A stretch of DNA of 64,000 bases, taken from NCBI RefSeq assembly GCF_024218775.1, contig NZ_CP100404.1, positions 2,666,001 to 2,730,000 of the forward strand. The letters run 5' to 3'. Below the pieces are notes generated by a model. The model made no database searches, had not been told where the DNA came from, and saw nothing but the letters and a program-made list of their open reading frames with translations. This stretch comes from Haloarcula marina (lineage in GTDB: Archaea > Halobacteriota > Halobacteria > Halobacteriales > Haloarculaceae). Made by a program: the position numbers and the translations under genes. This document shows positions 1 to 1,189 of this stretch, one piece after another; position 1 is the first letter of the stretch; every line of letters begins with the position of its first letter.

Positions 1-160
1 TCTTCTTCTTCTTTCGCTTCTTCTTCCGCTTCTTTCGCTTCTTCCGTCGCTTCTTCTTCCGCTTCTTTCGCTTCTTCTTCCGCTTCTTCTTCCGCTTCTT
101 CCGCTTCTTCTTCCGCTTCTTCCGCTTCTTCTTCCGCTTCTTCCGCTTCTCCTCACTCTT
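1..160. repeat. CTT/CCG microsatellite coding for Lys/Arg tail
   Basis: The plus strand is an almost unbroken CTTCTTCCG-type repeat with TTTCG variants. On the minus strand, in the frame of the exported protein, it reads as KKR/KRK units. The regular period makes it prone to slippage or misassembly. Confidence 0.85.
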
Positions 161-1129
161 TCCGTGTGGCCCGGCATGGTCCGGCGGCCCCGCGTGGTCG
201 GGGGCGTTCGAGTGGTCCGGCGGTCCCGCGTGGTCCGGCGGCCCCGCGTGGTCCGGCGGCCCGGTGTGGTCGTCTTCGTCATCGTCGTCTCTGTCGTCCC
301 TCTCGTCGTAGTCGTGGTCGTCGTCCTTCTCGCCCTCGTCGTCTTCCTCGTCTTTGTCGTCGTGGTCGTCTCTCTCGTCGTAGTCCTCGTCATCGTGGTC
401 GTCGTCCTCCGCGTCTTTGTCGTCGTGGTCGTCGTCTCGCTCGCACGACCCAGTTCGAATCGTCACCCTGTGGTCTAACTCGAGGGCGTATCGATCGGGG
501 TCGTCCAAATCGCCAGAGAGGACCTCCCAGCCGGAGAGTTGGCCGTCGTAGTACTCGCCGAACAGCGCGGCCTGTTCGTTGAACATGGGGTCGATAGTCA
601 GCGAGAACGAGCGCCCGTCGAGACCGTCGAGGACGCCGCCGTCCGTCCGTTCGGCCGCCCACGTCCAGTCGATGTCGGCCGACTCGTCGCGGATGTCCCA
701 CCGGTCGTAGTTGCTGTCGGCGTCGTAGAAGTCGTCTTTCACGACCCACTCGGCCGACGACGGGATGCCGTCGATGGCGAACGACACCGCGCCGCCGTTC
801 GTCCCGTCGTCGAACGCGTCGTGGACCAACACGAGGCTCAGACCGTTCGGCCCGTCGTAGAGGAACACGATGCTCGTGTCCTGCTTCTGGAGGGCCGTCG
901 TCCCGGTCGAACTGAAGTAGCGGTCTTCTAGTCCCCATCGGTAGAACTCCGTCACCGGACGGTCGCCCGAAAGCGGCGTAATCGAGCGACACCGGCCATC
1001 CTGTTCGACGACGTAATTGTGCTCGCGGGCGCTCGCGCTCCCGGCGGCGAGGGCGAGACCGCCGACCGTGGCCGTCGCACTCGCGAGGAACTGTCTGCGC
1101 GTCCGCGATTCCGGAGGGTCGAACGTCAT
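1..1129 (-). CDS. Tat-exported protein with charged repeat tail (3' end off window)
   Basis: The ATG at 1129 begins a twin-arginine signal (TRRQFLA, then a hydrophobic stretch ending near SASA), so export is expected. Residues of roughly 35-225 form a globular domain (YDGPNGLSLVLVHDAF, GWEVLSGDLDDPDRY) that I recognise only as a haloarchaeal extracellular type. A run rich in Asp, His, Glu and Lys follows (about residues 226-284), then about six copies of GPPDHA or variants (GPPDHS, NAPDHA), then an almost pure Lys/Arg tail of at least 50 residues that is still open at base 1. The frame is uninterrupted throughout. Switching from a strongly acidic to a strongly basic tail is unusual in a halophile. 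The Asp/His part could bind metal and the Lys part could bind polyanions or S-layer glycans; both are inference. Confidence 0.8.
   Translation of the reverse strand, partial: MTFDPPESRTRRQFLASATATVGGLALAAGSASAREHNYVVEQDGRCRSITPLSGDRPVTEFYRWGLEDRYFSSTGTTALQKQDTSIVFLYDGPNGLSLVLVHDAFDDGTNGGAVSFAIDGIPSSAEWVVKDDFYDADSNYDRWDIRDESADIDWTWAAERTDGGVLDGLDGRSFSLTIDPMFNEQAALFGEYYDGQLSGWEVLSGDLDDPDRYALELDHRVTIRTGSCERDDDHDDKDAEDDDHDDEDYDERDDHDDKDEEDDEGEKDDDHDYDERDDRDDDDEDDHTGPPDHAGPPDHAGPPDHSNAPDHAGPPDHAGPHGKSEEKRKKRKKKRKKRKKKRKKRKKKRKKKRKKRKKKRRKKRKKRKKKRKKKK
163..277. repeat. 18-bp minisatellite coding for GPPDHA
   Basis: About six tandem 18-base units (plus-strand core GTGGTCCGGCGGCCCCGC) encode GPPDHA and variants on the minus strand, inside the exported protein gene. 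Variation between copies includes an NAPDHS-like unit. Confidence 0.8.
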
Positions 1130-1189
1130 AGCGAAACGGACCGCCCAAATGCCGATTGTTATTCTGAGCATATCGGCACGGTAAACGGT

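Follow-up and report, generated by a model that had tools for sequence, protein, structure and literature searches.

The window, the whole 64,000-nucleotide stretch that was analysed (C1:2666001-2730000 of the 3.74-Mb genome of Haloarcula marina), was found to contain at its left edge a minus-strand gene for a protein of 391 amino acids, referred to here as the tail protein. The ATG was found at window position 1129, in agreement with the starts of the orthologues and with the spacing of an upstream motif, and the TGA 44-47 bases left of the window (L009:3954-3956, where L009:4001 is window position 1). The 47 bases to the left of the window contained the last ~15 codons of the gene and its stop. 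The first-pass annotation had described one continuous minus-strand frame and had suggested reading the remainder of the gene; a single open frame was found from ATG to TGA with the regions in the reported order, and the complete gene contained a Lys/Arg run slightly longer than the part visible in the window, followed by GKDDD and the stop codon. The features are as follows.

1155..1172, minus strand: bipartite upstream element TATGCTCAGAATAACAAT (NTAN8ATAACAAW), with ATAACAAT starting 33 nt before the ATG, from a genome motif count
1..1129, continuing left to genome position C1:2665954, minus strand: tail-protein gene, from the open reading frame and its translation (L009:3954-5129)
1028..1129, minus strand: Tat-type signal peptide MTFDPPESRTRRQFLASATATVGGLALAAGSASA, residues 1-34, read directly from the twin arginines, the hydrophobic stretch and the AxA end
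443..1027, minus strand: globular domain, predicted beta-sandwich, residues 35-229, with two conserved Cys near its ends, from profile A1, AlphaFold2 and alignment
266..442, minus strand: Asp/Glu/His-rich block, residues 230-288 (59 aa, net -36, 5 His), from translation
161..265, minus strand: GPPDHA-type repeat block, residues 289-323 (35 aa, about six units, net -5), from translation
1..160, with its end left of the window, minus strand: basic block, residues 324-391 (68 aa, net +56), from translation

The N-terminus was found to contain the sequence RTRRQFLA...GLALAAGSASA, which carries a twin-arginine motif followed by a hydrophobic stretch and an AxA-like cleavage site. The four orthologues in the genus contained S/N-RR-Q/A-FL at the equivalent position, and the Tat-type signal that had been placed ahead of the tail is supported by both the direct reading and this shared position; HMM support for it was weak (PF10399, E 0.018; TIGR01409, E 0.47), both matches being under the cut-off. 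The GPPDHA block contained the units TGPPDHA, GPPDHA, GPPDHS, NAPDHA, GPPDHA and GPHG, and the basic block contained KSEE followed by 59 consecutive Lys/Arg residues (43 K and 16 R) and GKDDD before the stop. The acidic and His-rich segment, the roughly six GPPDHA-type repeats and the run of at least 50 Lys/Arg residues noticed earlier were thus all present, the run being exactly 59 residues long in the assembly. The net charge was -24 in the domain, -36 in the acidic block, -5 in the GPP block and +56 in the basic block, which leaves -9 for the mature protein. No PGF motif, no hydrophobic segment after the domain and no NCBIfam PGF-CTERM match were found in the tail protein.

A CapA-like PGA_cap gene (Pfam PF09587, 3.5e-66; L009:2847-3950) was found left of the window, convergent with the tail gene and 3 bp from its stop, and the pair was preserved in L041, L042 and L043. 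The PGA_cap protein was considered as a functional partner acting through polyglutamate and was set aside, the preserved pairing being weak evidence for it, as the two genes are convergent and the pair lies within the general synteny of the genus.

The domain was found to have no Pfam or NCBIfam match above the curated cut-offs and no PDB sequence match with E below 1e-3. The 23-row profile A1 matched it in 196 of the 392 genomes of the order, and the tail protein gave a full match over the 195-aa domain, including the conserved W, DD, W-x-W and TDGG positions; the domain family is widespread in haloarchaea and undescribed, being absent from Pfam and NCBIfam. Two Cys residues frame the domain, and a disulfide is suggested because, in the alignment, one group of long proteins has lost the pair as a whole. 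The AlphaFold2 model was a confident beta-sandwich (pLDDT 91.3, pTM 0.90), for which a fold search of the PDB returned generic beta-sandwiches only (best E 3.2e-3, TM about 0.3). Cohesin and carbohydrate-binding folds are of the same general type as these best matches, but with E above 1e-3 and TM about 0.3 they give no family assignment. A search of viral fold models returned one strong match (E 1.1e-11, TM 0.69) that carries no name in the library, and an independent tblastn search found the domain in gp99 of Salicola phage SCTP-2 (ASV44114.1; L210:5896-11103; E 2e-4; hhalign 96.6%). The two matches are likely to be the same phage protein. gp99 is a beta-propeller protein of 1,735 aa encoded near the major capsid gene of this jumbo phage, and it matches virion-structural PHROG families. 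It resembles the tail protein in carrying a distant relative of the domain, at its N-terminus, whereas it differs in its beta-propeller build, in its origin from a phage that infects a halophilic bacterium and in having no charged tail.

Four orthologues in the genus (G018, G010, G002 and G015) were found to share 60-64% identity with the domain. The Tat signal and a comparable Asp/His block were kept in all four, and in two of them the block was built as regular HDDDDD repeats. GPP[DE]H units were found in the tails of G018, G010 and G002. The G015 orthologue was broken at a contig end inside its HDDDDD repeat (end of L015), and its GPP units were found on a separate contig assigned to it; this contig, with GPPDHA units (L079/L176), likely holds the remainder of the gene. 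The G018 orthologue ended in ...GPPDHAGPKDDEDDD followed by the stop, and the G010 and G002 orthologues contained a mixed Lys/Arg/Glu stretch followed by GPPEHSSAPDGAGPPN or GPPEHSNAPNGAGPPN. The Lys/Arg run was absent from all four. Of the parts of the tail, the Asp/His block was therefore found in every copy and the GPP units clearly in three, whereas the Lys/Arg run was found in none. Judged by the condition named in the first-pass annotation, a tail absent in all close relatives, the run is read as a lineage-specific addition, and the sequences point to a recent repeat expansion upon an older tail architecture.

The 59 codons of the tract were found to be 41 AAG, 10 CGG, 6 CGA and 2 AAA. 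Periods of 12, 21 and 33 bp were detectable in the tract DNA, which upholds the earlier remark that the repeats are expandable at the DNA level. Codons 1-26 were exclusively AAG or CGG, and the perfect repeat suggests a recent expansion on that side; all eight departures from the AAG/CGG lattice lay in the remaining part. By codon position, the departures numbered 0, 0 and 8 at positions 1, 2 and 3, and all eight were silent in the Lys/Arg frame (naive p 1.5e-4 for departures at the third position only, a value of reduced weight because slippage may have copied some of the changes). A possible mis-frame of a Glu/Ala repeat of acidic character was suggested by G242, in which the same (AAGAAGCGG)n DNA is read as an (AEE)n tail; for the tail gene it was rejected. 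Both flanks lie in the Lys/Arg frame and agree with the G018 orthologue, with GPPDHAGP before the tract and DDD-stop after it, and the same eight departures in the Glu/Ala frame would be first-position changes that alter the residue. Neither of the other two frames is plausible: the Glu/Ala frame was found to have no stop near the end of the tract and to extend, antisense, into the adjoining gene.

The (AAGAAGCGG)n repeat read as an acidic (AEE)n tail belongs to another haloarchaeal protein (G242, L205), and related purine repeats were found to encode poly-Glu in G046, G144 and G265 (the last being L206). The DNA unit of the tract is not special, and the unusual part is the reading frame in which it is used. 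A strict 20-codon pattern was found in 3 of the 146 genomes of the family, and it encoded Lys/Arg in a plausible gene only in the genome of the window; the order-wide (MRR)20 pattern also catches mixed compositions and other frames, and its matches were classified at a few places only. No paper was found in a literature search for haloarchaeal polylysine or Lys-rich tails.

In the domain family, 101 members were examined, among which a basic block after an acidic one was found in 18 of the 49 Tat-like members against 1 of the 52 non-Tat members, a comparison that ignores shared ancestry. When the acid-basic label alone was followed on the tree, at least five gains or losses were counted. The tail gene grouped with its orthologues (100/98), adjoining the f12 group, whose members have Gly/Lys/His tails (99/80). 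Of the non-Tat members, 23 of 49 had a membrane or PGF-CTERM anchor at the C-terminus, compared with 2 of 46 among the Tat members (Fisher p 1.3e-6, uncorrected for relatedness), with PGF-CTERM confirmed by NCBIfam in the family member L115, and six Tat members contained an amphipathic-helix-like C-terminal stretch. In several other non-Tat members, among them the two tandem paralogues of the Haloarcula marina genome, anchor and basic tail were both absent. As judged from these sequences, the C-terminal slot holds different devices in different members, and the devices may serve in retention.

The best 30-residue window carried a charge of +30 in the tail protein and of +13 in the next family member, which bears out the view that such a basic tail is unusual for the group. 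Its tail was also the sole net-positive one (+15) among the acid-plus-basic tails inspected, the others ranging from -8 to -91. Tat members with Gly/Lys/Arg/His tails (for example L100 and L108-L111) share the domain, the Tat signal and the acidic-then-basic order, but their basic part is Gly-rich and mild, their tails are net negative and they contain no comparable Lys/Arg run. The GPPDHA repeats noted in the first-pass annotation are not peculiar to the tail protein, as a two-unit GPP[DE][HD]A pattern was found in 26 of 293 genomes with the majority of its matches outside the domain family; it is a recurring haloarchaeal linker in many exported proteins.

Three further tails were observed in the course of these comparisons. 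At the other extreme of charge, the family member L158 (G169) carried a long poly-Glu tail after its GPPDHAGEE repeats. In L162 (Halolamina rubra), also a family member, the Gly/Lys/His tail apparently shifts frame near its end to give an Arg/Ala-rich terminus, by error or as real variation. A long Lys/Glu-rich tail (EKKEKKEEKEKK...) was seen in L207 (G040), a haloarchaeal protein that is likewise exported and contains Cys.

Upstream of the start codon, ATAACAAA was found 32-33 nt ahead of the start in the orthologues. Of the 87 family genes, 40 carried an octamer of the ATAACAAA type in the stretch upstream, often with TA ten bases before it, the corresponding rate in random stretches being 1.9%. 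The full pattern NTAN8ATAACAAW was rare, with seven sites in the whole genome (reversed control, two), six of which lay at family genes or at a polysaccharide-type locus. The sites were found at the tail gene, at two paralogues (C1:3210748 and 3211949), at one place elsewhere (33853) and, three times, around a large PKD-domain family member (C1:1664397, 1666247 and 1674582). This last region is the polysaccharide-type locus, identified as such by family matches, and it contained a GT2 glycosyltransferase, a GFO/IDH sugar oxidoreductase, a FemAB-like protein, a DUF1616 protein, a phosphodiesterase-family protein and an HTH_63 regulator-type protein, followed further along by CBM6 and DUF354 proteins. 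The gene of the HTH_63-type protein (L218:4607-5149) has the element ~250 nt upstream and is a candidate regulator.

The same arrangement of element and locus was found to recur in G002, G010 and G015. When G000 (the genome of the window), G002, G010 and G015 were pooled, 26 of 39 element sites lay no more than 12 kb from a family gene against 0.67 expected, an enrichment that is indicative and non-independent, given the relatedness of the four genomes and the fact that these same genes had first drawn attention to the motif. The element-bearing genes may be regarded as a candidate surface-coat regulon.

The reading that we tentatively favour, and hold with some reserve, is that of a Tat-exported, co-regulated surface-coat protein held to acidic exopolysaccharide by its polycation tail. 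What was read from sequence is the open frame, its charged tail, the family of the domain, a change of tail type where many non-Tat members have a membrane anchor, and a promoter element common to two paralogues and the polysaccharide-type locus. The silence of all eight departures in the Lys/Arg frame and the recurrence of acidic-then-basic tails among Tat members also speak for this reading. The beta-sandwich protein would leave the cell through Tat in soluble form, and its C-terminal tail would act as a device of non-covalent retention and cross-linking. The 59-residue Lys/Arg run would bind to polyanions in the coat of the cell, with acidic exopolysaccharide as the most likely target and the acidic S-layer as a possible further one, and the Asp/His and GPPDHA stretches would form a disordered spacer. 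Export, location, co-regulation in the cell and the binding partner of the tail are what we infer here. A polycationic tail on an exported protein with a shared promoter element fits attachment to acidic exopolysaccharide. The exopolysaccharide of Haloarcula hispanica, to which the polysaccharide-type locus is linked by genus, is acidic, with 26% w/w sulfate, and its loss changes the cell surface and adhesion (PMC5467301); its glucuronic acid is added through AepG (PMC9943897). The suggestion of a polyanion-binding surface protein, one of two made in the first-pass annotation, remains the best reading in view of this published polymer and of the promoter element common with the polysaccharide-type locus. 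The virion-structural family matches of gp99, the phage protein that bears a distant copy of the domain, also count in favour. Against the retention reading, the four close orthologues presumably manage without the Lys/Arg run, several non-Tat members lack both anchor and basic tail, and electrostatic binding is strongly screened at molar salt.

The main rival is neutral repeat expansion, in which low-complexity DNA was expanded by slippage and the tail is weakly constrained, so that only net disorder matters and the Lys/Arg residues have no specific partner. This is a real possibility, somewhat less probable in our judgement than retention. Family members differ very strongly in their tails (poly-Asp, poly-Glu, Gly-Lys and Thr-rich), the run is missing in the orthologues and its first 26 codons bear the sign of recent expansion, with the eight variants confined to the other part; the same repeat unit also serves as an acidic tail in another haloarchaeal protein. 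However, neutral expansion has to accommodate the silence of every departure in the Lys/Arg frame and the recurrence of basic tails after acidic blocks on separate branches. An artefact, in which the length or frame of the tract is an assembly or sequencing error, is the least probable explanation and scarcely to be expected: the G015 orthologue was indeed broken by contig ends within its own repeat, but here both flanks are in frame and of family-typical sequence, the neighbouring gene is intact 3 bp away, the repeat units are all multiples of three and a 177-bp tract is within the span of long reads.

Two readings turn on the acidic part of the tail. The Lys/Arg run may pair with the acidic block and domain of its own kind, within or between molecules, to give a condensed or layered assembly; such a self-neutralising polyampholyte, improbable on balance, draws on charges that almost cancel in the mature protein, whereas the net-negative tails of the other acid-plus-basic members inspected indicate that neutrality is no rule of the family. 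Metal loading, with divalent ions chelated by the Asp/His block and the Lys/Arg run as an accessory, is very improbable. The block is comparable in all four orthologues and regular in two, but no metal gene was seen adjoining the tail gene, and Asp is common in haloarchaeal surface proteins; metal loading, if real, would reside in the conserved Asp/His block and not in the Lys/Arg tail.

Retention by the polycation tail may be set beside two known modes of attachment. PGF-CTERM proteins, the substrates of archaeosortase A, are exported and surface-bound, and their tripartite signal has been described (PMC7157517). Many non-Tat relatives of the same domain end in PGF-CTERM, whereas the tail protein has the Lys/Arg run in place of the PGF motif and the C-terminal hydrophobic segment. 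The S-layer proteins of Lactobacillus attach through a C-terminal region whose positive charge matches the anionic polymer that it binds in the wall, teichoic acid (PMC11181022). This is an analogy of working only, with no homology found to the tail protein; the Lactobacillus region is a folded domain with phosphate sites, whereas the run of the tail protein is of almost one residue kind and presumably disordered. More broadly, and on present evidence rather unlikely, interchangeable polyelectrolyte tails could be non-covalent haloarchaeal alternatives to the PGF-CTERM lipid anchor, the Lys/Arg tail being a strong version. It would cross-link its beta-sandwich protein at the surface with acidic exopolysaccharide, and one dedicated promoter element would control both the tail gene and the polysaccharide locus.

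The proteins of salt-in archaea are generally acidic, and an exported protein with a run of 59 Lys/Arg residues offers a natural way to test whether charge-based attachment can work at molar salt. With a promoter element that links the family genes to a surface-polysaccharide-type locus, the tail protein is a concrete candidate for a component of the haloarchaeal surface coat.
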